64,000 nt of DNA from contig OZ020303.1 in NCBI GenBank assembly GCA_963971305.1, forward strand, positions 39,110,106-39,174,105, in the 5' to 3' direction. Shown piece by piece: positions 19,501 to 61,638 of this stretch. Both the position numbers and the translations under genes were made by a program. The DNA comes from Arcuatula senhousia (taxonomy: Eukaryota; Mollusca; Bivalvia; Mytilida; Mytilidae). Position 1 is the stretch's first letter, and the number at the start of each line of letters is the position of its first letter. Under the pieces are notes generated by a model, which did no database searches, was not told where the DNA came from, and saw nothing but the letters and a program-made list of their open reading frames with translations.

Positions 19501-22500
19501 GAAACTTTCACACATTCTTTGTCACATAATATAGATGTGCACCTACTATTTTAAAATTTCATCAGAATGATTTTTGGCTTTCCCATAGCAAAACATGGAC
19601 TTAGTCATTACACTATCCGCAACTCCTCCTAAACCCCTTGATGATTTTTGGGGTTTCACATAGCAAAACATGGACTTAGCCATTCAACAACATGGGGGTA
19701 CCCATCTCTTATCAGCAACTCCTCCTAAACCCCTTGATGGATTTTCATGAAACTTTCACACAATCTTTGTGACATAATGTAGATGTGCACCACATATTTT
19801 AAGATTTTATCTGATTATTTTTTTGGGGGGGCGGGGGTTATTTTCATGAAACTTTCACACATTCTTTGTCACATAATATAGATGTGCACCTACTATTTTA
19901 AAATTTCATCAGAATGATTTTTGGCTTTCCCATAGCAAAACATGGACTTAGTCATTACACTATCCGCAACTCCTCCTAAACCCCTTGATGATTTTTGGGG
20001 TTTCACATAGCAAAACATGGACTTAGCCATTCAACAACATGGGGGTACCCATCTCTTATCAGCAACTCCTCCTAAACCCCTTGATGGATTTTCATGAAAC
20101 TTACACACAATCTTTGTGACATAATGTAGATGTGCACCACCTATTTTAAGATTTTATCTGATTATTTTTTTGGGGGGCGGGGGTTATTTATTTGTGAGCT
20201 GCTTCTCAGAGTTTTTCATAGTTTTAAGTGACTTCCATAATATCAGTTTGTCAAAATACTAGTTAAACTTTTCTATATCTTTTTCTTGACAGTGTTGTTT
20301 ATGTACGAGAGACCAGGCTAACAGGCATATTGTCCCACATTATGATTGGTTTATCCATGTTGTTGTTACCCTACCCAATGAGCTACATACCTAGACCCGT
20401 ATTGGATGGTCTCTTTATCTATATTGCCATCACAGCATTATTTGGCAACCAGTTGTTTGATAGAATTCTATTGCTATTTACTGAACAGGTAATGAGGAAA
20501 ATATATATGATATATTGTGTAATAAATTTGTGTGCTTGAAATTTCATTTGTTTTGGTTGCATCACAAAGTGGATTACGTGACATCTTGAATAAAATTATT
20601 TAAAAACCTTTATTGCAATTTTTTAGCACGAGGAAAATGGCTAAAAATATGTTTTATTTATAAAAAAAAAACAATTGGGGATTTTTAAAAATTAGAATTA
20701 AAAGTTTTTAAAAAGTGAAATGAAATTTGACTGTCAGTACTAACTATAGAAGTAATGCGACTTTGCACACATGACTTCATACAAATACACTCAGGGATTT
20801 CCCCACAGTTAGTTACTTACATTGCAGCATATCCATCAAATATTTTGCAAGTCCATCCATTCATCAATGTTTGTTATTCTTTATGGAAGAGGGAGAACCT
20901 GGTTGAACCTACCATTTTTTTAAATGCCTGCACCAAGTCAGGACCCTTGCAGTCTTCAATTTCTTCTATGTATCCTTGCCTTGTTTTGTCTCTTTTCTTG
21001 AACATTTGAGATATATCCTTCCTCTTGTTATAACTTTAATTTACATATATCTTATTTTCAGTCTGCCTACCCACCCAACCACTACATTCGTAGAGTACCT
21101 CAGAGGAAGATTCATCTGTTTACCCTGACACAGATTCTACAGCTCCTGGTCCTCTGTGTGTTTGGATTCTCACCTATACCTTACATGAAGATGGTTTTCC
21201 CTATACTTATCATGCTTCTGATGCCTATAAGGTATGTATTAAGAACTCTCACCTATACCTTACATGAAAATGGTTTTCCCAATACTGATCATGCTTCTGA
21301 TGCCTATAAGGTATGTATTAAGGATTCACGCCTATACTTACATGAAGATGGTTTTCCCCATACTTATCATGCTTCTGATGCCTATAAGGTATGTATTAAG
21401 AACTCTCACCTATACCTTACATGAAGATGGTTTTCCCTATACTTATCATGCTTCTGATGCCTATAAGGTATGTATTAAGGATTCTCACCTATACCTTACA
21501 TGAAGATGGTTTTCCCTATACTTATCATGCTTCTGATGCCTATAAGGTATGTATTAAGGATTCTCACCTATACCTTACATGAAGATGGTTTTCCCTATAC
21601 TTATCATGCTTCTGATGCCTATAAGGTATGTATTAAGAACTCTCACCTATACCTTACATGAAGATGGTTTTCCCTATACTTATCATGCTTCTGATGCCTA
21701 TAAGGTATGTATTAAGGATTCTCACCTATACCTTACATGAAGATGGTTTTCCCTATACTTATCATGCTTCTGGTGCCTATAAGGTATGTATTAAGGATTC
21801 TCACCTATACCTTACATGAAGATGGTCTTCCCTATACTTATCATGCTTCTGATGCCTATAAGGTATGTATTAAGGATTCTCACCTATACCTTACATGGAG
21901 ATGGTCTTCCCTATACTTATCATGCTTCTGATGTCTATAAGGTATGTATTAAGGATTCTCACCTATACCTTACATGGAGATGGTCTTCCCTATACTTATC
22001 ATGCTTCTGATGTCTATAAGGTATGTATTAAGGATTCTCACCTATACCTTACATGAAGATGGTTTTCCCTATACTTATCATGCTTCTGATGTCTATAAGG
22101 TATGTATTAAGGATTCTCACCTATACCTTACATGGAGATGGTCTTCCCTATACTTATTATGCTTCTGATGCCTATAAGGTATGTATTAAGAACTCTCACC
22201 TATACCTTACATGAAGATGGTCTTCCCTATACTTATCATGCTTCTGATGCCTATAAGGTATGTATTAAGGATTCTCACCTATACCTTACATGGAGATGGT
22301 CTTCCCTATACTTATCATGCTTCTGATGTCTATAAGGTATGTATTAAGGATTCTCACCTATACCTTACATGGAGATGGTCTTCCCTATACTTATCATGCT
22401 TCTGATGTCTATAAGGTATGTATTAAGGATTCTCACCTATACCTTACATGAAGATGGTTTTCCCTATACTTATCATGCTTCTGATGCCTATAAGGTATGT

Positions 22501-23266
22501 ATTAAGGATTCTCACCTATACCTTACATGGAGATGGTTTTCCCTATACTTATCATGCTTCTGATGCCTATAAGGTATGTATTAAGGATTCTCACCTATAC
22601 CTTACATGAAGATGGTTTTCCCTATACTTATCATGCTTCTGATGCCTAAAAGGTATATTATACTGTCAGAATTGTTGAGTTTATGTTCATAGGATCACAG
22701 CAATAAGCAAAGATGAGATTTTTAGTCCTCAAGGGACATGGCTATAAGTTAAGCTCATGTCTGTCCATTTAATCTCTTAAATTGTATAAAAGATTGATAT
22801 GAAATTTTGGTACTGTGTTTTGGTATAACAAATTTTGTGTCTTATGTATTACACCGATAAGTAGACCTGTTGAACTACTAGGTACAAAATGTACTTCCTA
22901 ATACTTGCACTAATGCAGGGGCATCTGTGTCAAATAAAAACGTTCTTCAATTTATCCAGTTTTGTGATTTTATATTTCATTTATACAGATTGAGCTTTTA
23001 AAAAATGACCAGGATTTTGATTTAAGATTCAACTTTAAATACTGGTATGATATCAAAAGTTATAAAATATATCAGTAGTAGTACCCAAAAGTTTAATTAA
23101 GACATTTTCAAATATCAAATCTCCTGATTATAATTTATTAATTGTTTTTTTGTTGTTGTGTGAGTTTTACTTATGTTTGTTAAATTTTGTATTTTTATTT
23201 TTCAGACACAAGCTGACTCCTAGATTTATTGAGCCAAAGTACCTCAAAGCTTTAGATGGACACTAA
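1453..23266 (+). CDS. SLC4A11: SLC4A11-like transporter, 3' 16 exons (5' end outside window)
   Basis: Sixteen exons joined in consistent phase encode about 704 codons matching the SLC4A11 branch of the SLC4 bicarbonate-transporter family. SLC4A11 is a plasma-membrane protein reported to move H+/OH-, NH3 and water, and earlier called a borate transporter; the substrate in this organism cannot be read from sequence. Seen here: the end of the cytosolic N-domain (exons 1-5), then hydrophobic segments in exons 6-15, a large extracellular loop with three N-glycosylation sequons in exon 10, and the family-typical end LMPIR + [19 protein letters not shown]. Diagnostic stretches are [27 protein letters not shown] and [16 protein letters not shown]. 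Relative to the usual length of about 890 residues, roughly the first 200 are missing because they lie left of position 1. Most introns hold repeats; the last is invaded by a donor-containing minisatellite. Identification is firm; assignment to SLC4A11 rather than another SLC4 branch rests on these motifs. Confidence 0.93.
2109..2232 (+). CDS. SLC4A11: SLC4A11 exon 2 of window (cytosolic domain)
   Basis: Begins with the G completing Met and reads [16 protein letters not shown] and [12 protein letters not shown]; the last part matches the beta-strand FVILVLAP of the family. Donor GAG|GTAAAT, phase 0. The acceptor is a plain TTTGAG rather than CAG, but phase and homology support it. Confidence 0.85.
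2384..3079. mobile_element. MITE-like element with about 40-bp inverted termini
   Basis: The left end (CTATAGCGGGTTATTTTAGC-like, from TACCGTATAGCGGG) is repeated in inverse at the right end (CCCGCTAAAATAACCCGCTA then TAGGGTA). About 40 bp match well, and the inner sequence is unrelated AT-rich DNA without a transposase. Target duplication not resolved. Lies in the intron between exons 2 and 3. Confidence 0.6.
3080..3520. other. Intron sequence, nothing recognised
   Basis: AT-rich intron between the MITE-like element and the next repeat element. No exon-like stretch with splice signals was found. Confidence 0.5.
3521..4060 (+). mobile_element. Helitron2-like element, family GCCCCTCG
   Basis: Left arm TTTATGCCCCTCG and right arm CAGCGGGGGCAT are inverted, followed by the hairpin GTGTCC-CAT-GGACAC (4036-4050). 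Between them lie about three cores of about 155 bp with ACTTGAAACTTGGTAGGATG and CTACTTCCTGTTTGG landmarks. No protein coding. An inverse fragment of the same family is at 51603-51800. Confidence 0.6.
4291..4990 (+). mobile_element. Degenerate core-repeat element, arms TGGCCGGATTT
   Basis: TGGCCGGATTT at 4291 is inverted as AAATCCGGCCA near 4487. Two degenerate cores carry CAGTTTTCTCAGCAACT, a TGATATTTGGTA-like stretch and CTACTTCCTGTTT, as in the better preserved elements. A related fragment occurs at 24186-24345. Ends not fixed. Confidence 0.4.
5077..5289 (+). CDS. SLC4A11: SLC4A11 exon 3 of window (end of cytosolic domain)
   Basis: Starts [17 protein letters not shown], the conserved helix after the LAP strand in this family, and continues through a variable linker. 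Acceptor TTTCAG, donor ATG|GTAAAG; both edges phase 0, 71 codons. Confidence 0.92.
5535..5619 (+). CDS. SLC4A11: SLC4A11 exon 4 of window (linker, KYVPFG)
   Basis: Ends in KYVPFG followed by donor G|GTAATT, matching the conserved DFVPFGKG segment before the first membrane span. The 5' edge is chosen because only the acceptor ...AAGTCAG|TCAGAT keeps phase 0 with exon 3. The better-looking acceptor TTTTTCACAG at 5502 would hit a TGA within five codons if entered in phase 0. The right edge is safe, the left edge tentative. Confidence 0.65.
5755..5817 (+). CDS. SLC4A11: SLC4A11 exon 5 of window ([16 protein letters not shown])
   Basis: Enters with GT completing Gly and reads [20 protein letters not shown], matching the GIREDIARRFP segment. 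The acceptor is CCATAG; the CAG 19 bases upstream would bring in a TAG. Donor GAT G|GTATGT. Confidence 0.85.
5921..7226. repeat. Inverted-repeat-bounded element with GTCCGG motifs
   Basis: The ends CAGAGTTGTCGAAA (left) and TTTCAACAACTCTG (right) are inverted. Motifs of the kind GTCGGACCTGTCGG and AGGTCCGGCAAG lie just inside both ends. No coding sequence recognised inside. Similar GGACCTG/GTCTGGCAA motifs at 47350-47550 suggest a second degraded copy. Class unknown. Confidence 0.4.
7672..7794 (+). CDS. SLC4A11: SLC4A11 exon 6 of window (first membrane span)
   Basis: Reads [13 protein letters not shown] then the first hydrophobic span [15 protein letters not shown] and [10 protein letters not shown]. 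This is nearly colinear with the family's LFLYFACLLPTIAFG and NDENTDGAI. Acceptor TTTTTCAG, donor ATA G|GTAAAG. Confidence 0.95.
7795..8318. other. SLC4A11 intron, nothing recognised
   Basis: AT-rich intron of 524 bp. No repeat family or exon recognised. Confidence 0.5.
8319..8432 (+). CDS. SLC4A11: SLC4A11 exon 7 of window (spans 2-3)
   Basis: Reads [38 protein letters not shown]. The [13 protein letters not shown] block is among the most conserved in SLC4 transporters. Donor AAA A|GTGGGT; phase 1 on both edges agrees with its neighbours. Confidence 0.95.
8433..9337. other. SLC4A11 intron, nothing recognised
   Basis: AT-rich intron of 905 bp. An open frame runs into exon 8 from 9106, but it lies left of the acceptor and shows no similarity to the transporter, so it is treated as intronic. 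Confidence 0.5.
9338..9470 (+). CDS. SLC4A11: SLC4A11 exon 8 of window (span 4)
   Basis: Reads [20 protein letters not shown] then [18 protein letters not shown], matching DDYDLDFNSFYAWTGLWN in the family. Acceptor TTTTACAG, donor AG|GTAAGT, Arg split with exon 9. Confidence 0.95.
9471..9985. other. SLC4A11 intron, nothing recognised
   Basis: AT-rich intron with poly-A runs; no recognisable element. Confidence 0.5.
9986..10059 (+). CDS. SLC4A11: SLC4A11 exon 9 of window (RSTEEI, span 5)
   Basis: A short exon reading [20 protein letters not shown] then KDTVK, matching the family's [25 protein letters not shown]. Acceptor TTGACAG, donor AAA G|GTAAAC. Confidence 0.95.
10060..10730. other. SLC4A11 intron with a repeat-core fragment
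   Basis: Mostly unrecognised. At 10570-10690 there is a fragment like the 5' part of the Helitron2-like elements: CGTCTGTCTGTCTGTCTGTC simple sequence followed by a degenerate core. Confidence 0.4.
10731..10953 (+). CDS. SLC4A11: SLC4A11 exon 10 of window (glycosylated loop, span 6)
   Basis: The first two thirds is a hydrophilic, poorly conserved loop with three N-glycosylation sequons (NQT, NIS, NVT). This agrees with the glycosylated extracellular loop 3 of SLC4A11. Then follow the span [20 protein letters not shown] and TKT. Acceptor TTTTTAG, donor AC|GTAAGT. Confidence 0.93.
10954..11787. other. SLC4A11 intron with small local duplication
   Basis: At 11276-11395 a segment of about 70 bp containing GTGACCCTATTA and GGCAGACAACCATTTATACA is present twice in tandem. 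Degenerate versions follow (GACCTTATTTCACC, GACCTTATTTTACC). Otherwise nothing recognised. Confidence 0.45.
11788..13172 (+). mobile_element. Helitron2-like element, family TATGTCTCCCC, interrupted
   Basis: The left arm TTATGTCTCCCCATC and right arm GGGGGAGACATCA are inverted, and the left arm is followed by CGTCTG and a degraded core. The element is split by a younger insertion at 11901-13037. Same family as 33919-34876. Confidence 0.55.
11901..13037. mobile_element. hAT-like non-autonomous element with 7-bp target duplication
   Basis: Perfect terminal inverted repeats CATACCTGTTAACC / GGTTAACAGGTATG bound 1137 bp. They are flanked on both sides by AGGAAGG (11894-11900 and 13038-13044). Inside are several CTCCCGC motifs near both ends and AT-rich filler, with no transposase. 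TIR style and duplication length are close to hAT or similar cut-and-paste elements; the superfamily is not certain. Confidence 0.7.
13186..13800 (+). mobile_element. Helitron2-like element, family ATACCCCCGCTTC
   Basis: 5' arm ATACCCCCGCTTC, then CCGTCCGTTCGTCCGTCCGT simple sequence. Three cores of about 170 bp follow (TTTTCTCAGCAACT, GTCTGATATTTTG, ACTACTTCCTGTTTACC), then the 3' arm GAGCGGGGGTAT and the perfect hairpin GTGAGC-ATTA-GCTCAC (13774-13789), ending AGATTTACTTG. A complete, well preserved copy; an inverse copy is at 54404-54861 and a 3' end remnant at 24030-24076. Confidence 0.75.
13874..13984 (+). pseudogene. Possible unused or alternative exon in SLC4A11 intron
   Basis: A 111-bp segment bordered by TTTTTCTAG and CTG|GTATGA is open in one frame as a hydrophobic 37-residue stretch containing [16 protein letters not shown]. 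It sits just before exon 11, which also encodes a hydrophobic span. Entered in the phase left by exon 10 it starts TSPLL, like the TPFL start of exon 11, but reaches a TGA. It could be a decayed duplicate of exon 11, an alternative exon, or chance. Confidence 0.3.
13985..15933. other. SLC4A11 intron, mostly unrecognised
   Basis: Contains a poly-T/poly-G tract near 14110 and a degenerate core fragment at 14310-14420 (ATGGATTTGGATGAAACTTT). AT-rich sequence follows. No exon or complete element recognised. Confidence 0.45.
15934..16730 (+). mobile_element. Helitron2-like element, family TGTCGCCTGCAAC
   Basis: 5' arm ATGTCGCCTGCAACGTGTTG, then CGTCGTCTTGCGTCCTGCGT-type sequence. Four cores of about 175 bp follow (CAGTTTTCCAGGCAACTAC, TTGATATTTGGTATGTAGC, CTACTTCCTGTTTGACGAA). 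The 3' arm is GCAGGCGACATAT, then the hairpin GCCTTCC-GG-GGAAGGC (16706-16721), ending TCCATCTAG. Hairpin plus CTAG is the classical Helitron-type 3' end. Short inverse copies are at 35547-35823 and 42525-42823. Confidence 0.78.
16731..17146. other. SLC4A11 intron, nothing recognised
   Basis: AT-rich intron between the repeat element and exon 11. Confidence 0.5.
17147..17253 (+). CDS. SLC4A11: SLC4A11 exon 11 of window (span 7)
   Basis: Reads [20 protein letters not shown] then [16 protein letters not shown], matching [20 protein letters not shown] in the family. Acceptor ATTTCAG, donor AAG T|GTAAGT. Confidence 0.95.
17254..17913. other. SLC4A11 intron, nothing recognised
   Basis: AT-rich intron of 660 bp, no repeat family recognised. 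Confidence 0.5.
17914..18082 (+). CDS. SLC4A11: SLC4A11 exon 12 of window (span 8 region)
   Basis: Reads [36 protein letters not shown] and [16 protein letters not shown]. The last part aligns with FFIEQNLVAALVNAPENR. Acceptor TTGCAG, donor AA|GTGAGT. Confidence 0.95.
18120..18490 (+). repeat. Degenerate Helitron2-like core fragment
   Basis: Starts GGACATATAGTTTTACCC with CCGTCTGTATGTACATCCGT, then two degenerate cores of about 170 bp (GGTTAAGTTC, CCCACTAGAAATT). No clear ends. Confidence 0.4.
18491..18933. other. SLC4A11 intron, nothing recognised
   Basis: AT-rich intron remainder before exon 13. Confidence 0.45.
18934..19107 (+). CDS. SLC4A11: SLC4A11 exon 13 of window
   Basis: Reads [39 protein letters not shown] and ends on the cytosolic segment [16 protein letters not shown] and HAA.PHSPLHV are hallmark blocks of the SLC4 family. 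Acceptor TTTCAG, donor AT|GTAAGT. Confidence 0.96.
19350..20210 (+). mobile_element. Helitron2-like element, family TATACCCCCTG, with internal duplication
   Basis: 5' arm TTTATACCCCCTGTTTG, then TCTGTCTGTCCGCCCGTCTG. Cores follow with CTCCTCCTAAACCCCTTGAT and TTTTCATGAAACTTTCACAC. The 3' arm is GGCGGGGGTTAT, with an imperfect hairpin TGTGAGCTGCTTCTCAGAG. A 347-bp block is tandemly duplicated almost exactly (one copy starting at about 19493, the next at about 19840). Confidence 0.65.
20293..20488 (+). CDS. SLC4A11: SLC4A11 exon 14 of window
   Basis: Reads [38 protein letters not shown] and [27 protein letters not shown] and GNQL are strongly conserved. Acceptor CTTGACAG, donor CAG|GTAATG, leaving phase 0. 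Confidence 0.97.
20489..21061. other. SLC4A11 intron, nothing recognised
   Basis: AT-rich intron of 573 bp. A chance open frame at 20755-21009 has no splice or homology support. Confidence 0.5.
21062..21231 (+). CDS. SLC4A11: SLC4A11 exon 15 of window (last spans)
   Basis: Reads [20 protein letters not shown], then the final spans ending [16 protein letters not shown] and AG of the split Arg. The donor AAG|GTATGT at 21232 joins exon 16 to restore [10 protein letters not shown]. The last 63 bases of this exon are unit 1 of the 79-bp array that fills the start of the intron. Confidence 0.96.
21169..22652 (+). repeat. 79-bp minisatellite of exon end plus splice donor, 19 units
   Basis: Nineteen head-to-tail units of 79 bp (unit 3 is 78) each carry the coding segment CTCACCTATACCTTACATG..., the exon end CCTATAAG and the donor GTATGT, then TATTAAGGATT. 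Unit 1 is the genuine exon 15 end; the others lie in the intron. All keep GTATGT except the last, which has GTATAT. Units differ at a few sites (for example GAAGATGG/GGAGATGG, GATGCC/GATGTC, AAGGATT/AAGAACT), so shared variants trace its history. Not CRISPR: no spacers. Confidence 0.95.
22653..23205. other. SLC4A11 last intron, part after the array
   Basis: AT-rich sequence leading to the last acceptor. At 22720-22935 a degenerate core fragment is visible (GATATGAAATTTTGGTACTG, then ACTTCCTAATACTTGC and GGGGCATCTGTGTCAAAT), like the end of the GCCCC family. Confidence 0.45.
23206..23266 (+). CDS. SLC4A11: SLC4A11 exon 16 of window (C-terminus, stop)
   Basis: Acceptor TTTTTCAG. Starts with the A completing Arg and reads [19 protein letters not shown] then TAA (23264-23266). 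This matches the family's C-terminal LPRIIEAKYLDVMDA. In the other two phases the exon runs into early stops, one of them the TAG in ACACAAGCTGACTCCTAG. Confidence 0.96.
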
Positions 23267-30836: not shown

Positions 30837-33800
30837 CTGAAAACCAAAAATTTATTGAGTTTAATATAAATTTCCTTCACTTCAAAAATCTGTCAGGTTT
30901 AATTTAATATCTAATCAGAATAGAGCTGCAATTCAACACTTTGAACCACAAAATAATGCACACTGGGATAGGAGAAATAACACAATTTTTAGCACATTGT
31001 AAGATCCTTGAACAAGAATTAATTTTTCACTAAATATAAGATGCTTCACTCTATTTAAGAGGGCAAATAGGATGATTGTTTTTTGACAGGTTAGAATGAC
31101 AAAACCCCTTCATTCAGATCCTCTCTTGATATTTTTTTCTCCTAAACAATCCATATAGATTATGCCTATGGGTTATCCCATAGGGGAGAAACATACATAT
31201 ATCTTTTACATATTCAAACATACCTTCAGCAAATTTATTTTCTAACTCTGTATTTCCTATTGCTTTTGATGCCTGGCACATCTGTCTAAGTGTTTCTTCT
31301 AACCTTCTCATACACCTGATTATACTTCCTGCAAAACAAAGAATTTTACAATATCTTAGAACTGTTCCATAACATCCTTAATAATAATTAAGTTGGTCAT
31401 CATGTTCTATTGGAAAAGAGCAATGTAAGCAGTCAATGATACCAGAGTAAATTTTCTATAAATACTGGTACTAAACTTAAAATGGATATAGAAGGATATT
31501 TTTTTTCATATGCGCATATAATTATTACCATAATTATTTTCAGAGATAACAAGAAACCTACTGTTAGCCACTGCTCCTCCAGCATACCCTCATTAACCTC
31601 CATATAAAATATGTTTATACCAGTCCCATTTTCTGAACACTCAATAAAATAAGGTTTCATACCAATATATAGAAAGTCCTTTTGGTTTATAATTGTTGAG
31701 GAAACTTAATGAAAATTAAAGCCATTGACACATAACATGGAAAACTGAACAAGTGTGTAAACAGAAAGAAGATATGCTAGTAACCTAAAATTTCAAGGTT
31801 GGTGTGATAAGTTGCTGCTCAAGAAATTGTTTTAGAATTTATGTTGTGGATGGATGAAGGTAAACCAGTATACCCCCATCTTCTTCAAAGCAAGAGTTTA
31901 ATAATAGTAAAACAGCTACAATTTGGAATTTTCCATATTTGGATTACTTCATATTTAAGTCATTAAATGATTTCAATATGGATCAGTCCACAATTAAAAC
32001 AATTATATTTAAGACCAGTCAATAAGTGAACAGTTACAATTTGGATCAGTCTATAACCATTTGGACCAGTCCATAAGTGAACAGTGATTTTGGGCCATTC
32101 CAAAACAAGAGGCTCCCAGGAGCCTGAATCGCTCACCTGGTCTTGATGCCAACCCTATGAAGACTTTTGTATAGCTAAATGAGCTGAATGTTTGAGCATG
32201 AAAAATCATTTCTCTATCTGCAATAGTTTTCATTCTAAATAATCAAAAAACACTATTATTCAACTTTTAAGGGGCTGTAACCCCTATAAGGGGTTATCAG
32301 ACAACTTCAACCCTATGAAGACTTTTGTAGAGCTAAATGAGTTGAACATTTAAGCAAGCAACAGCTTTTCTCTATCTGCAATAGTTTTCATTCTATAGGC
32401 CAAAAACACTATTTTTCGCCTATACAGGGCTTTAACCCCTATAAAGGGTCATCTGACAACTTTGACCCCATGGAGACTTTTGTAGAGCTAAATGAGCTGA
32501 ACATTTTAGCAAGCAACAGCTTTTCTCTATCTGCAATAGTTTTCATTTTATAGGCCAAAAACAATATTTTTCGCCTTTAAGGGGCTGTAACCCCTATAAG
32601 GGGTCATCTGACAACTTTGACCCTTTGGAGACTTTTGTAGAGCTAAATGAGCTGAACATTTAAGCAAGCAACAGCTTTTCTCTATCTACAATAGTTTTCA
32701 TTCTATAAGCCAAAAACATGCAAAATGCTATTTTTCACCATTAAGGGGCTGCAACCCCTATAAGGGATCATCTGACAACTTTAACCTTATGGAGACTTTT
32801 GTAGAGCTAAATGAGCTGAACCTTTAAGCAAGCAACAGCTTTTCTCTATCTGCAATAGTTTTCATTCTATAGGCCAAAAACACTATTTTTCGCCTTTAAG
32901 GGGCTGTAACCCCTATAAGGGGTCATCTGACAACTTTGACTCTATGGAGACTTTTGTAGAGCTAAATGAGCTGAACATCTAAGCAAGCAACAGCTTTTCT
33001 TTATCTACAATAATTTTCATTCTATAGGCCAAAAAACATGCAAAAAGGCTATTTATCACCTTTAAGGGGCTGTAACCCCTATAAGGGATCATCTGACAAC
33101 TTTGACCAAATGGAGACTTTCGTAGAACTTTTGATGCTGAAGCAGTAAGGTGGCATCAGATTTCATCTATCTCTTATACTTTTTGATTTACGAGCCAAAA
33201 ACAGTAGTCTGACCCCCCTGGTCTATTTTTAGTAACGGTGGCCATGTTTTTTGATGGATCAAAAATCGAAACACAAGTTTGGTGCAGGACACCCTAAGGA
33301 TCATTCATACCAAGTTTCATTAAATTCTGTTCAGTAGTTTCAGAGGAGAAGATTTTTGAAAAATTGTTAACAGACGACGACGACGACAGACGACGACGAC
33401 GACAGACGACGACGACGACGACGGACGCCAAGTGATGGTAATAGCTCACATGGACCTTCGGTCCAGGTGAGCTAAAAAAGTGATTAAAACATTTACAATT
33501 TGGATCATTCCATTAATGAGTTACATTAATAATTAAGTGAACTAATTTGATATATAACAGAAATGTATTGTAACTGTAACTTACTTGATAAATAATCACG
33601 TGAGTTTACTCAAGCTTTACTCTTTACATGTTAGTTGATATCTATACCTAATGATTTGAGTTAACTCTGATCTATAGTCTTAATCCAACTTTAATTGATA
33701 TTTACATTTCTGTTATATATCAAATCAGTTCACTTGATTGTTAATGTAACTCACTAATGGAATGATCAAAATTGTAATTAATTTAATCACTTTTGGACTG

Positions 33801-36800
33801 GCCAAAAATCACATATATGGATGGACTGGTCCAAATTGTTATAGACTGACACGAACTTGTAGACTTGTCATAATTATAACTGTTTAAATAACTTATGAAC
33901 TAATCCAAATCATAATTAAAGTTTGTTTTTGCCTACAAAAACGATGTCTCCCCCTGTTTCCCCAAAAATGTCTAAGTTCAAAAGGCCATTATTCCCAAAA
34001 AAATTTGAAGATCAAAATTTCCTGGTAATATGCACAACAACATATGGTGTCCTTCCTATATACCAAGTTTCATTGAATTTGGTTAAGTAGTTTTAGAGGA
34101 GTTGTGCTGACAAGATGATAAATGAGGATTTTCAGCAAATTCCTAAGTTCAAAGGGCCATAACTCCAACATTTATTTGTGGATCAATATTTCCTGGTAAT
34201 ATGCACAGCTACATATGATGTTCTTCCTATATATTAAGTTTCATTGAATTTGGTTCAGTAGTTTCAGAGGAGTTGTGCTGACAAGATGATAAATGAGGAT
34301 TTTCAGCTAATTCCTATGTTCAAAGGGCCATAACTCCCACAAAAATTTAAGGATCATTATTTCCTGATAATATGTACCACTACATATGGTGTCCTTCCTA
34401 TATACCAAGTTTTGTTGAATTCAGTTCAGTAGTTTCAGAGGAGTTGTGCTGACAAGATGATAAATGAGGATTTTTAGCAAATTTCTAAATTCAAAGGGCC
34501 ATAACTCCTACAAAAATTTGAGGATCAAAATTTCCTGGTAACATGCACAACTACATATGGTGTTCTTCCTATATACCAAGTTTTGTTGAATTTGGTTCTG
34601 TAGTTTCAGAGGAGATGAGCTAACAAGATGATAAATGAGGATTTTCAGCAAATTTCTAAGTTCGAAGGGCCATAACTCCCACAAACATTTGAGGATCATA
34701 ATTTCCTGTTAATATGTACCACTACATATGGTGTCCTTCCTATAGACCAAGTTTCGTTGAATTCAGTTCAGTAGTTTCAGAGGAGTTGCGCTGACAAACT
34801 TTGTGACGGACAGACGGACGGACGGTCACGACATTAACAATATGTCTCCCCACAAAAGTGGGGGGAGACATAATTATTTATGTTAGTTTTGCCTGAAAAA
34901 AAACTTAAGGTCACAGCGAGTCACTGGAGCGTGAAAATGGGGTCAGGGTCACACAGCTGGTGACAGTTGCATAGACCATAACATCAACTGTCTGTATACC
35001 ATATATCAGAAATACCTTTGTCCCTCCTTCAGCTACTACTTATAAGCTGATCCATAATTATGGGGATAGACATAAATATTCTAATGGGCCAGAAAAAAAT
35101 AGCATATGAGGTAAAAACATTTTGAAATACCTTCAAATATGTCTGTCATTTTACAAATCTGTGCAAATGTACAGCCATTACACCAAGCATTGACAATGTC
35201 CATCATGTGTGGTCGGAAGGATTCTACGTACTGTTCTTCATCCACGTCAATCTTAGCTTCTCTACTGACCCGAGCTATTCTTCTGGCTGTGTCCTGTTCG
35301 GTAATGTAAAGGTAAAATATTAGATAGGGAATCTGACCAAAAAAAATGGGCTCCTTCAGTATAACCCTGAGCCCCCCTTCCCAAGCTGTATACCTGCCCA
35401 TTATTCTGAACATTCAATACACTTAGGTTGTATATTAACTTTCATGTAACTGTGATTTATAGTGGCTAAAAATGTTAAGAAAAATTTCAACCATTGAAAA
35501 AAAAGTGGAAAATTGATCAAGATAATAAAAAGGAAATAAATATGCATCTGGAATGGCGGTCTTCCATGGAAGACCTATGTTGCCTGCGTCTAAAATATCA
35601 AGTAAACAGAAAGTAGATGAATTACAGGCATAAAATCTCTTCACATTATATACATGTAGTACTATAGAGAAGCTACATGCCAAATATCAACAGGCTGTGA
35701 CATGTAGTTGCCTGGAAAAATGTGACAAAATTTTTTGTGATAATGCAGGACGATGAAGCAAGACTACGGATAGCATAAAAGTAACCCCTATATGTTGCTT
35801 TGCAACATGTTGCAGGCGACATACAAAACTTAAAATCAGTTCTTTCCATAAATTACCTTATACTGGTAAAATACCCAATTTCAATTCCCTGTGGTGAATA
35901 CCTTTTTAAAAAGTGTGTAGACATGCATATTTTCAAAGTCAATTTGTACCCAGAAATTTACCTTTTATCCATATTTCCTAAACAACTGACTTCTACACAA
36001 CATACCTGCATAATTCTCAATGGACCAGACAGTGTTTCTGTGAGTTTTGGTAATTCATTAGCTTTCTCATCAAAGACAAAACAGCTGACTAAGGCACAAC
36101 ATTGCTGAACAGTCAGATCATTGAATACACCATTAAATAACAGCTCTGTCATAAGCAACTCATCTCCACTGAAAATATTAAATATGACAAATAATTTGCT
36201 ACAACCAAGATTTCATTATTCCGCAAAAATGTAAATCAATTTTTAATTCACGAAAGTGATGCCGAAGATTTAAGCACTTTAAAAGTTTTACACTTCTATT
36301 TAATATATTCATCTGACTCTTGAGCTGTCAGTTTGATTGTCAACAGACAGGTATTTTATTAGAAATTATGTACTTATTATCTCTCTTTGGAAATCATCTT
36401 AATATCTCTCTTTGGTAAACCATCTTAATATCTCTCTTTGGTAAACCATCATTTTAAACTTGAAATATCTACATGTGTGATAGGAAATCTTTAAACTTTT
36501 TAACAATAAATATTCAAGATATTTAATTCAATTGCAAACTAATGGTTAAACTAGAGGCTCCCAGGAGCCTGAATCGCTCACCTGATCTCTTTTGCCAAAG
36601 TTTGAATAAATTTCACAAACTTCAAGTATACAAAGTTGCAAAACAATCCTTTCAGTGGTTTCAGAGAAGATTTTTTGAAATCAGTTTAAATTAATAGAAA
36701 AAACAGTTAAAGGGCAATAACTACTGTAAGGACCTTTTGATGCTGAACAAAAAAATTTGCTTCCGATTTTCTTTATCTCTTATACTTTTTGAGTTATAAG

Positions 36801-51800: not shown

Positions 51801-54342
51801 ATATCTGTCCATCAGTACCCCAAACATTTTCAGAATCAATCACATAGTTATGGCTTCACTTGTCAAAAATAAATTTTCAGTATTTGAAAGAAGTTTCTAT
51901 GATTATCCAGTTTAAACATTTCTTTGTGCTTATTTTTTCTTTTTTCCTTTTGAATGGAGTCAATTAAATAATTATGCTGTGCTTGCAGCTAGGCAATGCC
52001 TAAATCATAATACCCATAGAACTTTTAATTCATACAGACATATCTGTCCATCAGTACCCTAAACATTTTCAGAATCAATCACATAGTTATGGCTTCACTT
52101 GTCAAAAATAAATTTTGTGTATAAATTTTGAAAAAAGTTGTTAAAACATTTCTTCATGCTCTTTTTCTTTTTTCCTTTTGAATGAAGTCAATTAAATAAT
52201 TATGCTGTGCTTGCAGCTAGGCAATGCCTAAATCATAATACCCATAGAACTTTAATTACCCATCTGAAATCTTTTCCATCAAATTTCCTGGCACTTGTAA
52301 ATAAAACTGTCCTAGCGGGCATGTTTAAACCCATTGCAAATGTCTCTGTTGCAAATAATGCCTACAATATATAAGAATAAAAAAACACATGTCAAAAATA
52401 ATTTCAACACAAAACTCAATTTTACCAAAAAAATTAGTAAAACTCTGCTACATTTTTTTCTTTTTTAAAATTTTCATACCCTCATCTCTCTATTTTTTAG
52501 ATAGGTAACTACATAGTGGTCCATTATTTTCTTCTCTTTTTTAGCGTGTTATTAAGACATAACCAGGAGGACTCTCCAAGTCTATTTTTAGAGAGCAGGC
52601 CACCATTACAAATAATGCCAATAACTTCTTAATATGAATACTCTTGGAACAGTTTTGCTTTCCTCATCCGGATTAATTAATTAGGTATCATATGCAAAGG
52701 GCGGAAACAATTCCTTTTGTATCAATGACAGTTAAAAACTACACAATCAGGTCCAATCCTTCTTATATGTAAAGCTAATGTTGAAACAGCAACCCTGCTA
52801 ACAAATGCACCTCATTATTTTGGTAGTATAAATACTGAAACTTGTAGGTAAACTAGAATACTGACAAAGTCAGAAAGGGCCCCGCGGCAAAATATCTAAG
52901 TGTTTTCAAAATCATACGAACTTTAATTATAACCACTAAGGCATGTTCCATGGAATGCATATGAAACTTCAGAGCTGTATTGTTAATAGCCTTTGAGTTC
53001 TATTGTTAAAAAAATCCTATTCTCAAAATCTGTGATTTTCGATAAAAAATGAAAGTTTTTTCCAAAAACATTTAACAGATTTGCATGAAATTTTAATATG
53101 CAAATCAGGACATGCTACTTAGCAGCTGTACAAAGTTTCAGAACTGTATTGTTAACAGTTTTTGAGTTTTAGTGTTCACAAAGTCCAATTCTCAAAATCT
53201 GTGATTTTCAATAAAAAATGAAGTTTTTTCCAAAAATATTAATCAGATTTGCACGAAATTTTAATATGCACATCATGACATGCTACTTAGCAGCTGTGCA
53301 AAGTTTCAGAACTGTATTGTTAACAGTTTTTGAGTTTTAGTGTTCACAAAGTCCAATTCTCAAAATTTGTGATTTTCGATAAAAAATGAAGTTTTTTCCA
53401 AAAATATTAAACATATTTGCACAAAATTTTGATATGCACATCATGACATGCTACTTAGCAGCTGTGCAAAGTTTCAGAACTGTATTGTTAACAGTTTTTG
53501 AGTTTTAGTGTTCACAAAGTCCAATTCTCAAAATCTGTGATTTTCGATAAAAAATGAAGATTTTTTACAAAAATATTAATCAGATTTGCACAAAATTTTA
53601 ATATGCACATCATGACATGCTACTTAGCAGCTGTGCAAAGTTTCAGAACTGTGGTGTTAATAGTTTTTGAGTTTAAGTGTTCACAAGAATTGTTGACGGA
53701 CGGACAGACGTCCGGACGGACGGACGGACAGACGGACAAAGTGAAAACTATAGGGCGTCCGCATCTTCGATGCGGGGCCCTAATTAGAGTCTATATAACA
53801 TATCATTGTTGTTTTTTTGTTTTGTTTCATCTGTTCATACCTATACAATTTCTAAACAAAGGTCCTAAAAGGTAGGACATGTCAACCTGAAGTTAAACCA
53901 CTTACCTTAATAAGTCCTTCAGAGAAGAGTATTTCAATGGTTTCTTTCAGTAGAGGTAACAGTTACCTATACCTTCCTCAACAGAGGGAGGACTGCCTCA
54001 ACCTGAGGTTAAACCTCTTACCTTAATAAGTCCTTCAGAGAAGAGTATTTCAATGGTTTCTTTCAGTAGCGGTAACAGTCCACCATGATGTATACCTATA
54101 CCCTTCCTCAACAGAGGGAGGACTGCCTCAACCTGAGGTTAAACCTCTTACCTTAATGAGTCCTTCAGAGAAGAGTATTTCAATGGTTTCTTTCAGTAGA
54201 GGTAACAGTCCACCATGATGTATACCTATACCCTTCCTCAATAAAGGAAGGACAGCCTCAACCTGAGGTAGTTTTTTATCCTCATCTGATAAAGCATCTA
54301 TGGCATTGTTAAATACCTCATCTACTAAAGATTTTTCTTCTT
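30784..54342 (-). CDS. MTREX: MTR4-like exosome RNA helicase, 3' 15 exons (5' end outside window)
   Basis: Fifteen exons on the minus strand join in consistent phase to about 629 codons matching the C-terminal 60 percent of MTR4 (SKIV2L2/MTREX). MTR4 is the nuclear DExH helicase of TRAMP/NEXT-type complexes that feeds RNA to the exosome. Visible in order: the end of RecA2 with GIHHGG, motif V ([15 protein letters not shown]) and motif VI ([10 protein letters not shown]); the winged helix ([20 protein letters not shown]); the arch stalk ([16 protein letters not shown]) and KOW fold ([19 protein letters not shown]); the returning stalk ([19 protein letters not shown]); and the helical DSHCT domain ending [12 protein letters not shown]. 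The family is usually about 1040 residues; the DExH box half lies right of the window. The KOW-arch insert is the least conserved part, as expected. One exon has a partial duplication that includes its donor. Confidence 0.94.
30837..31223. other. MTREX intron, nothing recognised
   Basis: AT-rich intron of 387 bp. Confidence 0.5.
31224..31328 (-). CDS. MTREX: MTREX exon, DSHCT domain ([20 protein letters not shown])
   Basis: Reads [35 protein letters not shown]; one of the most conserved stretches of MTR4. Donor GAA G|GTATGT, acceptor TTTTGCAG. Confidence 0.97.
31329..31930. other. MTREX intron, nothing recognised
   Basis: AT-rich intron. A chance open frame at 31433-31660 (minus) has no support. 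Confidence 0.45.
31934..33900. repeat. Foldback element, arms split by a later insertion
   Basis: The left arm (31934-32105, continued at 33475-33571) and right arm (33704-33900) are inverted copies. The inner 92 bp, ending AATTTGATATATAACAGAAA on the left arm, match at nearly 90 percent. Farther out, CAGTCTATAACCATTTGGAC matches the inverse CAGTCTATAACAATTTGGAC. Motifs of the GGACCAGTCCATAAGTGATT type recur, as at 49590-50090. The left arm is interrupted by the element at 32106-33474. Confidence 0.7.
32106..33474 (-). mobile_element. Helitron2-like element, family CTCACCTGG, subfamily ending CTTG
   Basis: On the minus strand: 5' arm TAGCTCACCTGGACC, CGTCGTCGTCGTCTGTCGTC simple sequence, then cores of about 155 bp (ATGAAACTTGGTATGAATG once, then seven units with AACAGCTTTTCTCTATCTGC in the plus sense). 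The 3' arm is CCAGGTGAGCGATTC and the perfect hairpin GGCTCC-TG-GGAGCC, ending TCTTG. Inserted in a foldback arm at CCAAAA/AGTGATT, which fixes the ends. Confidence 0.8.
33919..34876 (-). mobile_element. Helitron2-like element, family TATGTCTCCCC
   Basis: On the minus strand: 5' arm TATGTCTCCCCCCAC, CCGTCCGTCCGTCTGTCCGT, five cores of about 155-160 bp (TTTGTCAGC, CCAAGTTTCATTGAATT in the plus sense), 3' arm GGGGGAGACATCG, and the hairpin GTTTTTG-TAGG-CAAAAAC. Complete copy of the family also seen, broken, at 11788. Confidence 0.75.
35131..35293 (-). CDS. MTREX: MTREX exon, DSHCT domain (MTDIFEG)
   Basis: Reads [36 protein letters not shown] and [13 protein letters not shown]. Starts in phase 0 after acceptor CGAACAG; donor GAA G|GTATTT. 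Confidence 0.96.
35547..35823 (-). mobile_element. Short single-core element, family TGTCGCCTGCAAC
   Basis: On the minus strand: 5' arm TATGTCGCCTGCAACATG, one core with CAGGCAACTAC-like and TTGATATTTGGCATGTAGC, 3' arm GACGCAGGCAACAT, hairpin GGTCTTCC-AT-GGAAGACC (35558-35575). A minimal one-core copy of the family at 15934. Confidence 0.7.
36006..36168 (-). CDS. MTREX: MTREX exon ([11 protein letters not shown])
   Basis: Reads [33 protein letters not shown] and [14 protein letters not shown], matching the DSHCT start. T completes Ser of the preceding exon; donor CAG|GTATGT. Confidence 0.96.
36169..36549. other. MTREX intron, short repeated motif
   Basis: Contains AATATCTCTCTTTGGTAAAC two to three times in tandem near 36380-36450. 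Otherwise unrecognised AT-rich sequence. Confidence 0.45.
36550..39052 (-). mobile_element. Helitron2-like element, family CTCACCTG, subfamily ending CTAG
   Basis: On the minus strand: 5' arm TAGCTCACCTGACCC with hairpin-like GACCC-GAA-GGGTC, then CGTCCGTCGTCCGTCGTCCG. Units of about 490 bp follow, each containing three sub-cores (ATTGATACTTGGTATACATG). The 3' arm is CAGGTGAGCGATTC, the hairpin GGCTCC-TG-GGAGCC and terminal CTAG. Two neighbouring 492-bp units are identical over their length as far as read (37432-38416). Confidence 0.8.
39081..39691. mobile_element. MITE with 20-bp TIR and AAGAT target duplication
   Basis: TAAAGACATAGAACCTATCA at the left and TGATAGGTTCTATGTCTTTA at the right are perfect inverted repeats, flanked by AAGAT on both sides (39076-39080, 39692-39696). 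The inside (610 bp) is AT-rich, with no transposase. Superfamily not assigned. Confidence 0.75.
39934..40097 (-). CDS. MTREX: MTREX exon ([15 protein letters not shown])
   Basis: Reads [37 protein letters not shown] and [15 protein letters not shown], the coiled end of the arch stalk and the start of the helical domain. Donor AG|GTAGGA, acceptor TATCAG. Confidence 0.97.
40098..40540. other. MTREX intron, nothing recognised
   Basis: AT-rich intron of 443 bp. Confidence 0.5.
40541..40636 (-). CDS. MTREX: MTREX exon ([12 protein letters not shown])
   Basis: Reads [32 protein letters not shown], matching the arch stalk. Donor AAA|GTTAGT is a weaker than usual donor; acceptor CCAG. Confidence 0.95.
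40637..41289. other. MTREX intron, weak inverted AT-rich repeat
   Basis: Around 41030-41240, CAGGGGGATATAAATTTGTT and CCCACAAATTTAAAA/ATCCCCAGAAAAATAAATT are weakly inverted, suggesting an old repeat. No exon. Confidence 0.4.
41290..41382 (-). CDS. MTREX: MTREX exon ([15 protein letters not shown])
   Basis: Reads [31 protein letters not shown]. Both edges phase 0; donor AAG|GTAGAT, acceptor ATAACAG. Confidence 0.96.
41700..42125. repeat. 42-bp minisatellite, about ten units
   Basis: Units of 42 bp (AAGCTGCATGCAAAGCCTAC, ATCAGTTATGACTTAGAAGA, TG) repeat about ten times in an MTREX intron, ending about 80 bp from the donor side of the next exon. On the plus strand one frame is open throughout as the 14-residue repeat [14 protein letters not shown], but it has no Met and no splice context, so coding is not claimed. 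Confidence 0.85.
42202..42312 (-). CDS. MTREX: MTREX exon ([20 protein letters not shown])
   Basis: Reads [37 protein letters not shown]; 37 codons, phase 0 on both edges. Matches the stalk leading out of the KOW fold. Confidence 0.97.
42525..42823 (-). mobile_element. Short single-core element, family TGTCGCCTGCAAC
   Basis: On the minus strand: 5' arm TATGTCCCCTGCAACGTG, GCGTCCTGCTGCGTC-like sequence, one core, 3' arm GTAGGTGACATAC, hairpin ATCTTCC-ATGG-AAGAC and terminal CTAG at 42525. Same minimal form as 35547-35823. Confidence 0.7.
42824..43672. other. MTREX intron, nothing recognised
   Basis: AT-rich intron of about 850 bp without recognised elements. Confidence 0.5.
43673..43798 (-). 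CDS. MTREX: MTREX exon, KOW-arch part ([14 protein letters not shown])
   Basis: Reads [20 protein letters not shown] and ends [15 protein letters not shown] and the GEMQ/VIPVL junction match MTR4; the middle is divergent. Donor CAG|GTAGAT, acceptor TTTTTGCAG. Confidence 0.9.
43910..44960 (-). mobile_element. Helitron2-like element, family GTCTCGCCTGC, chimeric 5' part
   Basis: The 3' end (CAAGAGTTAACACTAAAGTA in the plus sense, arm GTCTCGCCTGCCGG) and three cores of about 150 bp (CATACCAAGTTTCATCAACC) are nearly identical to 50093-50790. The 5' part differs: CTGTCAGTCCGTCCATCCGT and CACACGAAGTGGCGAGG on the minus strand, with hairpin GCCAC-TTCGT-GTGGC. It seems to have exchanged its 5' half with another subfamily. 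Confidence 0.65.
45229..45300 (-). CDS. MTREX: MTREX exon, KOW fold ([10 protein letters not shown])
   Basis: Reads [24 protein letters not shown]. The donor is taken as AAG|GTTGTA because it alone keeps phase 0 with the next exon; the frame stays open beyond it to about 45140. The left edge is therefore less certain than the acceptor side (TTTTCAG). Confidence 0.8.
45301..45736. other. MTREX intron, nothing recognised
   Basis: AT-rich intron of 436 bp. Confidence 0.5.
45737..45909 (-). CDS. MTREX: MTREX exon, arch stalk ([16 protein letters not shown])
   Basis: Reads [37 protein letters not shown] and [16 protein letters not shown], matching the incoming stalk and the KOW entry. Starts AA, completing Lys; donor AAG|GTAAGG, acceptor TTTGTAG. 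Confidence 0.97.
46095..46515. repeat. 27-bp minisatellite, about fifteen units
   Basis: Degenerate units of about 27 bp (GGAAATTTGCATAAAAGGTA, TAACTAT). Because 27 is a multiple of three, open frames exist on both strands (for example HSYTFYANF repeats on the minus strand). They are by-products of the repeat. Located in an MTREX intron. Confidence 0.85.
46516..47865. other. MTREX intron with a degraded repeat
   Basis: At 47350-47550 motifs such as GCCGGACCTGTCAGAC, GCAGGTCCAGCAAG and GGTCTGGCAAAC recall the element at 5921-7226. The rest is AT-rich and unrecognised. Confidence 0.4.
47866..48016 (-). CDS. MTREX: MTREX exon, winged helix ([20 protein letters not shown])
   Basis: Reads [39 protein letters not shown] and [10 protein letters not shown], one of the best matches to MTR4 in the window. 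Donor GAT A|GTAAGA, acceptor ATTTTAG. Confidence 0.97.
48017..48926. other. MTREX intron, unrecognised, one CRE-like palindrome
   Basis: Moderately GC-richer stretch at 48350-48730 containing a perfect TGACGTCA at 48433-48440. With no adjacent transcription start visible, I give it no regulatory meaning. Confidence 0.35.
48927..49052 (-). CDS. MTREX: MTREX exon, helicase motif VI ([10 protein letters not shown])
   Basis: Reads [52 protein letters not shown] is motif VI of the Ski2/MTR4 helicases, with the arginine fingers intact. Donor AAG|GTAACT, acceptor ATTCAG; phase 0 on both sides. Confidence 0.98.
49053..49590. other. MTREX intron, nothing recognised
   Basis: AT-rich; chance open frame at 49245-49445 (minus) without support. 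Confidence 0.45.
49590..50092. repeat. Second copy of the CAGTCCATAAGTGATT repeat family
   Basis: Irregular tandem motifs of 30-60 bp of the type TTGGACCAGTCCATAAGTGA, TTAAAATAGTTACAATTTGG. They match the outer arms of the foldback at 31934-33900. The stretch ends where a Helitron2-like element is inserted, as in the other copy. Confidence 0.55.
50093..51181 (-). mobile_element. Helitron2-like element, family GTCTCGCCTGC, five cores
   Basis: On the minus strand: 5' arm TTTGTCTCGCCTGCGAAGC with CTGC-GAA-GCAG, GGCGGCGGCGACGACGGCGG simple sequence, five cores of about 150 bp with GATGAAACTTGGTATGCATA, 3' arm CCGGCAGGCGAGACATAC and end CTCTTG. Its 3' 690 bp are nearly identical to 43910-44610 in another intron of the same gene. 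Confidence 0.75.
51182..51602. other. MTREX intron, nothing certain
   Basis: AT-rich with scattered AAGTAAACTCACACTAAAGT-like words. No element ends recognised. Confidence 0.4.
51603..51800 (-). mobile_element. 3' fragment of the GCCCCTCG-family element
   Basis: In the plus sense GTGTCCATGGGTCAC and GATGCCCCTACTGGCC are followed by AGGAAGTAGAAGTCTGACAG, the inverse of the 3' end and core of the element at 3521-4060. The 5' part is missing. Confidence 0.55.
51789..52256. repeat. Tandem duplication of about 239 bp next to an MTREX donor
   Basis: Two copies, starting ATTCATACAGACATATCTGT at 51789 and again at 52028, and each ending near AATACCCATAGAACTTT. The second copy ends a few bases from the splice donor of the exon at 52260-52361. 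A small deletion separates the copies internally. Confidence 0.85.
52260..52361 (-). CDS. MTREX: MTREX exon, helicase motif V ([15 protein letters not shown])
   Basis: Reads [34 protein letters not shown]. Motif V of the Ski2-like helicases, intact. Donor TGG|GTAATT, acceptor ATTGTAG; phase 0 on both sides. Confidence 0.98.
52362..52852. other. MTREX intron, nothing recognised
   Basis: AT-rich intron before the next repeat element. Confidence 0.45.
52853..53786 (-). mobile_element. Helitron2-like element, family AGGGCCCCGC
   Basis: On the minus strand: 5' arm TTAGGGCCCCGCATC followed by the inverted pair CCGCATC/GATGCGG, then CCGTCTGTCCGTCCGTCCGT. Four cores of about 180 bp follow (TTCTGAAACTTTGCACAGC). 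The 3' arm is GCGGGGCCCTTT, the hairpin CTGAC-TTT-GTCAG (52861-52873) and TATTCTAG. Complete and well preserved. Confidence 0.78.
53901..54151 (-). repeat. Two extra partial copies of an MTREX exon with its donor
   Basis: Downstream of the true donor at 54151 the 3' part of the exon (from the CAGGTTGAGGC region on) and the donor AAG|GTAAG recur twice, with donors at 54021 and 53905. The first extra copy is offset 130 bp. The second is offset 116 bp because 14 bp covering the HHGG codons are lost. Reading through the true donor meets TGA within nine codons, so only the first donor is productive. Confidence 0.9.
54152..54342 (-). CDS. MTREX: MTREX exon, RecA2 ([11 protein letters not shown]), first in window
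   Basis: Reads [63 protein letters not shown], matching MTR4 RecA2 with its HHGG. Acceptor TTTTGTAG, phase 1 at entry; donor AAG|GTAAGA. The preceding exon is not within the remaining 9.6 kb that I could read. Confidence 0.97.
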
Positions 54343-55990: not shown

Positions 55991-56808
55991 TAAAAACAAG
56001 AGGCTCCCAGGAGCCTAAATCGCTCACCTGGTCTTGATGTAAACTATGAAGAACTTTGTAGAGCTGAATAAGCTGAACATTTATGCAAGCAACAGCTTTT
56101 CTCTTTCAGCAATACTTTTCATTCTGTACGCCAAAAACGGGCAAAATGTTATTTTGACTCTATAAAGACTTTTATTAAGAGCTTCTAATGAACTGAACAT
56201 TAAAGCAAGCAACCACTTTTCTTTATCTGCTATGGTTTTCATTAATAACAGTAATGTTAAACCAGTCCTGATGCATGGGTCAGAGTGCTGGAGTATCATC
56301 CAGAGTGACCTACAGAAGTTGGAGGTGTTCCAGAATAAATTTTTGAGACAGATAATGGGAATATTCTGGCCACAAAAGATAAGAAATGAAGACCTGCTAA
56401 AGAAATGTAACTGCCATTCCATTGCAACAGAGCTGAAAAGGCGACACTTCAGATGGCTGGGACATGTACTTGGGATGACACAAGACCACATCCCTAAAGT
56501 AGCCTTACGCTGGACAACACCTGGCAGACCTCGGACCACCTGGAGGAGAACCATTCAAACTGAATTACAGGACCAGGGATAGAGCCTAGGACAAGCCCAG
56601 CATATAGCACAGGACAGAGGGAAATGGAGGGAACTGGCTATGGCCTTATGTCCCATCAGGGATGAAGAGGGTAAGTGAGGTGAGGTATAGTTTTCATTAT
56701 TTAAGTCAAAAACATGAAAAAAATGTTTATTTAGGGGCTGTTATCCCAATAAGGGGTCATCTGACAGCTACAACCCTATGGAAACTTTTGTAGAGCTAAC
56801 TGAGCATT
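55991..56808 (-). mobile_element. CTCACCTGG-family element, truncated, hosting a LINE fragment
   Basis: 3' end CAAGAGGCTCCCAGGAGCC with cores AGCTGAACATTTATGCAAGC, interrupted at 56244-56685 by the LINE piece. It resumes with TATAGTTTTCATTATTTAAG and is cut off at about 56808, where the second copy of the duplication begins. Confidence 0.65.
56244..56685 (+). pseudogene. 3' fragment of a non-LTR retrotransposon (reverse transcriptase C-terminus)
   Basis: The frame reads NSNVKPVLMHGSECWSI, then FRWLGHVLGM, IPKVALRW and TTWRRTI. This is the typical C-terminal tail of RTE/Jockey-type LINE proteins, after the polymerase domain. A TAG interrupts it at 56580-56582. Beyond it the same frame continues (AQDRGKWRELAMALCP) to a TGA after EEGK. 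The copy is 5'-truncated and lacks catalytic motifs. It is flanked by TATGGTTTTCATT (56231-56243) and TATAGTTTTCATT (56686-56698), a 13-bp target duplication with one mismatch, lying in a repeat core. Confidence 0.82.
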
Positions 56809-61314: not shown

Positions 61315-61408
61315 ACTTGTTAACAGACGACGACCATGACAGAGGACGGCGACGGACGCCAAGTGATGGTAATGGCTCACATGGACCTTCAGTCAAGGTA
61401 AGCTAAAA

Positions 61409-61638
61409 ATAGCATTTTTGGCCCCTAATTTTGAAACAAAAAATGGGAGGACCCCCAAAATCAATCCCATTCATCCTTTTATGGTAAGGAACATAAGTGT
61501 CAAATTTCATAGCAATGAAATGACTTGAACTAAAGTTATTGTGGTAACACTAAAGTTAACAGACGCCGCGGACGACAACGAAGACGACGACGACGACAGC
61601 ATCATACCAGTGTCGCAATTTTTTTGCGGTCGTATAAA
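61409..61638 (-). mobile_element. 5' fragment of the TATACGACCGC family
   Basis: In the plus sense one core (AGGACCCCCAAAATCAATCC), then GACGACGACGACAGCATCAT and the 5' arm TGCGGTCGTATAAAAA: the inverse of the start of the 25846 element. The 3' part is absent. Confidence 0.65.

Follow-up and report, generated by a model that had tools for sequence, protein, structure and literature searches.

The penultimate coding exon of SLC4A11 in the bivalve Arcuatula senhousia ends in a tandem array that repeats the exon end together with its 5' splice site, placing 19 donors one behind another. A second, three-copy case was found at an exon end of MTR4 in the same window (the whole stretch of 64,000 nucleotides that was analysed). 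Both arrays are mirage minisatellites, a kind already known in lancelets and in human genes: they consist of head-to-tail repeats across an exon-intron boundary of a real gene, and their units carry the splice signal with them, 18 of 19 donors being identical in SLC4A11 and all three being intact in MTR4. At the level of sequence, the array, its origin from the exon, the reading frames behind its donors and the second case in MTR4 are established. As for its effect, the SLC4A11 array is probably a tolerated mirage, with splicing from the first donor and removal of everything after it as intron. The preliminary description of this DNA had suggested a U1 sponge, slower splicing of the last intron, or toleration because the first donor wins; among the three, the last fits best, and the other two drew no support from this analysis. 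The MTR4 array was missing from that description.

The SLC4A11 array and its gene

The features of the SLC4A11 locus are as follows.

21062..21231, plus strand: native penultimate coding exon of SLC4A11, 170 nt, acceptor TTTTCAG|TCT, ending ...MPI(R); placed by tblastn with Mytilus californianus and by the 7x1g alignment
21164..22656, plus strand: SLC4A11 mirage minisatellite, its 79-bp unit present 18.9 times; from TRF and unit alignment
21232..21242, plus strand: donor 1, AAG|GTATGTATTAA, the sole donor yielding the conserved C-terminus, judged by the frames and the C-termini of 120 listed homologues
21311..22653, plus strand: donors 2-19, with first intron bases 21311, 21389, 21468 and then in 79-bp steps; donors 2-18 are the same as donor 1
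23206..23266, plus strand: last coding exon, acceptor TTTTTCAG|ACA, 19 residues; tblastn at 95% identity

The name SLC4A11, given to the gene in the preliminary description, was borne out. A six-exon composite had human SLC4A11 as its best PDB match (7x1g, E 6.5e-107), and the alignment runs through the join. In tblastn, the SLC4A11 protein of Mytilus californianus matched the exon at 21062-21231 with 90% identity and that at 23206-23266 with 95%. The top protein match was SLC4A11-like of the same species (75% identity), and the next named ones came from other bivalves and from gastropods; these are the best 120 of 797 matches, obtained by scoring the 7995 candidates that had the most words in common with the query, and they place the animal among bivalves close to Mytilus. 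The MPIR position is followed by a tail of 19-21 residues in 119 listed homologues out of 120; the exception, P0026, is labelled partial and ends at MPIR.

In the window, TRF reported the array with 96% matches and a score of 2734. Set in register by unit alignment, the unit comprises the last 68 exonic and the first 11 intronic bases of the penultimate coding exon, and copy 1 is the coding exon end itself. The unit thus includes the authentic donor, as in donor-spanning VNTRs of the CBS and ABCA7 type. The unit length of 79 bp had been given correctly beforehand, and only the tract of 63 exonic bases from 21169 needed revision, to 68 exonic plus 11 intronic bases starting at 21164. Direct search found the donors from 21232 to 22653 at a spacing of 79, with one exception of 78. 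As had been noticed earlier, all are unchanged except one: donors 1-18 read AAG|GTATGT and donor 19 reads AAG|GTATAT. From donor 1 to donor 19 the array takes up 72% of the last intron, whose length is 1974 bases.

Variation within the array is limited to 18 of the 79 columns, one of them variable by a gap. Copy 1 has no differences from the array consensus and is the same as copies 5, 6 and 17. Copies 2, 3 and 19 carry five, four and five differences, and the other 16 copies carry none to three. Variants common to several copies occur at unit positions 2, 4, 25, 33 and 61, and the unit opens with GGATT in 15 copies and with GAACT in the other four. The array shows concerted evolution with diverged edges.

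When the exon end was compared with its own intron, the score was 78, while shuffled sequence gave 14.6 +/- 1.7, which excludes a chance origin of the repeat. A search of the unit against its own genome, in which only the best candidates were scored and which does not by itself prove a single copy, reported seven matches, all of them inside the array. Since only one 14-base match lies outside the array in the window at E <= 0.1, and all seven reported genome matches fall within it, a dispersed mobile unit was rejected. The unit was absent from the viral contigs searched.

It could be supposed that the assembler expanded a short array or chained two haplotypes, and tandem arrays are indeed common in this genome, making up 10.7% of 200 kb sampled elsewhere on contig C1 (20 stretches of 10 kb, six of them next to the window). 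We regard such an artefact as very unlikely, as the copies carry differing combinations of variants in a non-periodic order, which argues against simple stutter, and all matches reported for the unit fall at a single locus of the 1.036-Gb assembly (1803 contigs), on a contig of 85.8 Mb.

Donor choice in SLC4A11

The frames of all 19 donors were read, and the earlier statement about the first donor holds: donor 1 alone preserves the frame and leads to the native, conserved C-terminus. Donors 2 and 3 lead to a foreign tail, ...HASDAYKTQADS, which ends ...TQADS and is followed by a stop. No 6-mers of this read-through tail were present in the 120 listed homologues, and as a protein query the tail drew 27 candidates, none at E <= 10. 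Donors 4-19 lead to a stop inside the array, in copy 4. Transcripts whose stop lies more than 50 nt upstream of a junction are, as a rule of thumb, subject to nonsense-mediated decay; this distance is exceeded for donors 5-19, and it is 43 nt for donor 4.

The predicted pairing with U1 is -8.7 kcal/mol for donors 1-18 (computed for 1, 2 and 18, the rest having the same letters) and -5.7 kcal/mol for donor 19. For 22 ordinary donors of SLC4A11 and MTR4, some of them roughly placed, the mean was -6.75 kcal/mol and the range -12.1 to -2.6 kcal/mol. This invites the explanation that the array acts as a brake on splicing: the donors would compete, splicing of much of the pre-mRNA from donors 2-19, or its retention, would produce early stops and decay, and SLC4A11 output would fall as the array lengthens. 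The equality of donors 1-18, their predicted pairing above the local average and the position of the stop with donors 5-19 all speak for such a brake, and the human CBS gene offers a possible precedent, as its 31-bp VNTR is reportedly associated with reduced CBS activity (so the title of the 2001 report by Lievers et al., cited in PMC2630376). The brake is nonetheless unlikely in our judgement, on account of evidence from MTR4 and from human ABCA7 that is considered below.

Internal acceptors within the array, which would create small exons, were also considered and remained unsupported. The three AGs of a unit have a pyrimidine fraction of 0.53 in one case and 0.65 in two, no higher than the lowest value among 11 real acceptors (0.65-0.88).

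Alternatively, the extra donors might serve as a landing pad that binds U1 without being spliced, either guarding the last intron against early polyadenylation or holding U1 back. In favour of this, 17 of the 18 extra donors have stayed intact, and one AATAAA occurs in the last intron, at 22933. However, a single AATAAA is unsurprising in an AT-rich intron, and the intactness of the donors does not exceed chance: the donor 9-mer has no variable columns in copies 1-18, for which P is 0.18, and P is 0.06 for a 14-base block. A role of this kind seems highly improbable to us. The same P of 0.18 for the 9-mer leaves unsupported the idea that selection keeps decoy donors intact.

We return to the reading in which the first donor wins. 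Under it, a short tandem duplication across the exon end and the 5' splice site would have arisen first, then grown and been homogenised to 19 units by unequal exchange; no seed-like short direct repeat was evident by eye in SLC4A11. The pre-mRNA would be spliced mainly from donor 1, which would be preferred because it closes an exon of ordinary length (170 nt) directly after the real 3' splice site, and the other 18 donors would leave with the intron. The array would thus have little effect on the protein, and any use of donors 5-19 would give early-stop transcripts of the kind cleared by nonsense-mediated decay. That donor 1 wins in vivo, and that the array grew by this route, we infer. The first-donor reading is favoured by the identity of copy 1 as at once the exon sequence and the array consensus, and by the native tail of 119 of the 120 listed homologues, given that only donor 1 yields such a tail.

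Against it stands classical minigene work in which, of two equivalent duplicated donors, the intron-proximal one was reportedly often preferred. In an old array whose extra donors did harm when used, the absence of decay in 17 of the 18 would also be unexpected, though the array may be young. With 19 near-identical 5' splice sites, each behind nearly the same 68 exon bases, the locus offers in natural form what duplicated-donor minigenes test.

The MTR4 array and the repeat background

The second array lies in a helicase gene, whose identity as MTR4 is, judged by sequence, certain. A 629-residue composite from the window aligns end to end with human MTR4 (6ro1, E 0), and the join SEGLIK|ALFATE is gapless. 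Its features are these.

53893..54268, minus strand: MTR4 mirage, three copies of 130, 130 and 116 bp with donors at 54151, 54021 and 53905; from TRF, donor search and copy comparison
54152..54342, minus strand: native MTR4 exon, ending ...FSEGLIK; donor 1 joins it to the exon starting at 52361 (ALFATETF...), and the 6ro1 alignment is gapless across this join
52260..52361, minus strand: next MTR4 exon, 34 residues; its 3' end is approximate

The full unit consists of 117 exonic and 13 intronic bases, and the third copy is 14 bases shorter. Here CTTCAGGTTGA stands in the intron behind the last copy and CCTCAGGTTGA at the unit start, a short direct repeat that, going by the letters, could have seeded the first duplication. 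Only donor 1 leads on to the protein, and donors 2 and 3 lead to a stop after 71 residues. The best predicted U1 pairing is nevertheless that of donor 3 (-11.7 versus -9.5 kcal/mol). As donors 2 and 3 stop early although donor 3 pairs best, proximity and U1 pairing alone cannot be decisive, if MTR4 protein is made. The presence of a downstream donor with better predicted pairing next door argues against the splicing brake in SLC4A11. The two neighbouring genes, one with equal donors and one whose last donor has the strongest predicted U1 pairing, pose the question of whether the position behind a 3' splice site beats equal or better donors.

The copies differ in a way that would not be expected if intronic copies merely drifted. 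Between copies 1 and 2 of MTR4, six of the 117 exonic sites differ, each time synonymously, where random changes would be synonymous in 25-31% of cases (P = 3e-4 to 8e-4); five of the six are common to copies 2 and 3. It looks as though copies 2 and 3 were coding while they diverged. Of 14 distinct exonic variants in SLC4A11, seven are synonymous, compared with an expected 22-23%, or about three (P about 0.02); leaving out two junction-near sites, an omission decided after seeing the data, gives 7 of 12 (P below 0.01). These tests were post hoc and involve few sites. We entertain as a possibility, rather less than an even one, that the intronic copies form a pool in sequence exchange with the coding exon, through unequal crossing-over or conversion. 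If so, the physical copy serving as the exon would turn over, while a rule of using the first donor would preserve the protein. The synonymous bias would equally be explained if MTR4 copies 2 and 3 descended from a different exon allele.

Tandem arrays make up 27% of the window, yet only 4.6% of exon bases (186/4057). Two of the 30 exon 3' ends and none of the 30 exon 5' ends of SLC4A11 and MTR4 lie inside arrays; the positions of several of these ends are approximate, and among the 3' ends two are stop codons and not donors. As exon boundaries are depleted in arrays and not enriched, a special affinity of repeats for splice sites was rejected. Comparison of exon-end bases with up to 2 kb of adjoining sequence made only two of the 60 ends stand out, both of them donors (z 38.0 and 35.8), with the other 58 below 3. 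A further scan, over 71 TRF rows that may overlap, looked for arrays in which every unit brings along a good donor preceded by an exon-like open frame. On both strands and at periods of 40-400, arrays of this architecture were found in none of 41 array rows of the 200-kb sample, and at two loci among the 30 rows of the window; since the thresholds had been loosened to take in SLC4A11, MTR4 alone having passed a stricter setting, the result is informative only in its zero for the sample. In this genome, then, arrays are frequent and kept out of exons, and these two survived where splicing can hide them.

Several other repeats were observed in the window. Units of about 491 bp (36546-39056 and 59330-61318) and of about 155 bp (32102-33360, 57606-59334 and 61636-62575) form tandem blocks at distant places, with about 80-94% identity and parts of their flanks in common; from these sequences, they are apparently dispersed repeat families carrying tandem cores. 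Two 707-bp stretches with 174-bp tandem units (43909-44615 and 50092-50798), 6 kb apart in two MTR4 introns, are 99% identical and represent a recent copy. Another MTR4 intron feature is a 42-bp tandem array of 11 copies (41659-42122), where the plus strand is open for 145 codons with a 14-residue repeat. A 27-bp array of about 16 copies (46106-46524) has long open frames on both strands. Finally, an open frame of 138 codons (56166-56579, plus strand) resembles, by eye, the C-terminal part of a retroelement reverse transcriptase.

Comparison with known systems

The SLC4A11 array had been called unusual, a view that does not stand: the same architecture occurs in lancelet mirages and in the human CBS VNTR, and a near form of it in ABCA7. 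PMC3087553 describes lancelet globins whose exon-intron boundaries are tandemly duplicated and takes the name "mirages" from an earlier case in Adh3. According to this paper, the mirages of Adh3, BflGb6 and BflGb9 are likewise minisatellite-like boundary duplications, with units of 10-160 bp and clusters of unstable length, and BflGb6 has a homogenised centre and diverged edges, as in the SLC4A11 array. The lancelet, a chordate, has three and six copies of the BflGb6 unit in two haplotypes, versus 19 units in SLC4A11, and its mirages hit both 5' and 3' exon boundaries, whereas the mussel arrays involve donors only. PMC3902484 adds PGBD5 and troponin C as further mirage genes. Among the matches listed from the open-licence literature, repeated use of "mirage" was confined to two papers, both on lancelets, and no use of the phrase "mirage minisatellites" was found in that literature. 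Limited searches of it found no mollusc case of an exon-boundary array; the part seen of a paper on gastropod haemocyanin introns (PMC7931591) mentions neither "minisatellite" nor "repeat".

A further likeness is to intron gain by tandem AGGT duplication, also raised in PMC3087553, where a duplicated AG|GT could seed introns. No new intron was seen, the old splice being all that the conserved protein requires; in a comparison at the protein level, the proteins of relatives align across the old joins with no call for a new junction.

The human CBS VNTR is named c.1444_1467+7(16_21) in PMC2630376, which we read as a unit of 24 exonic and 7 intronic bases straddling the end of an exon together with its donor. 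Like the SLC4A11 array, this VNTR has a high copy number (16-21) and single-base variants between units; it differs in its unit of 31 bp versus 79 and in gene and phylum, and it is known to be polymorphic in people.

Splicing itself has been followed in the lancelet and in ABCA7. According to PMC3087553, the Adh3 data and the authors' RT-PCR on globins suggest that regular splicing is undisturbed. In the intron-18 VNTR of ABCA7, as described in PMC5954066, the unit starts at the authentic donor GT and is present in about 12 to about 427 copies, giving many donors in tandem, and retention of one unit accounts for 2 +/- 1% of steady-state transcripts, independent of array length. Both observations favour the reading in which donor 1 wins, and the unchanged ABCA7 value tells against a brake that strengthens with length. 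As blocking translation with cycloheximide substantially raises early-stop transcripts in ABCA7, the 2% is a lower bound, part of the retention being hidden by decay. The same paper gives 14 +/- 6% for an exon-18 cryptic acceptor and 12-45%, depending on tissue, for skipping of exon 19, which rises with array length. Such arrays are thus not always inert; this lends the brake some support, and the cycloheximide effect takes slightly from the weight of the first-donor reading and adds slightly to that of the brake. The likeness has limits in both directions. The ABCA7 unit of 25 bp runs from the GT and lacks an exon end, whereas the SLC4A11 unit includes 68 exonic bases, so that copies 2-18, with near-equal exonic bases and the same donor, should be better competitors than ABCA7 units. 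Conversely, the ABCA7 exon that is skipped as the array grows is internal, while the next exon of SLC4A11 is the last, and skipping of the ABCA7 type would be impossible there in the same way.
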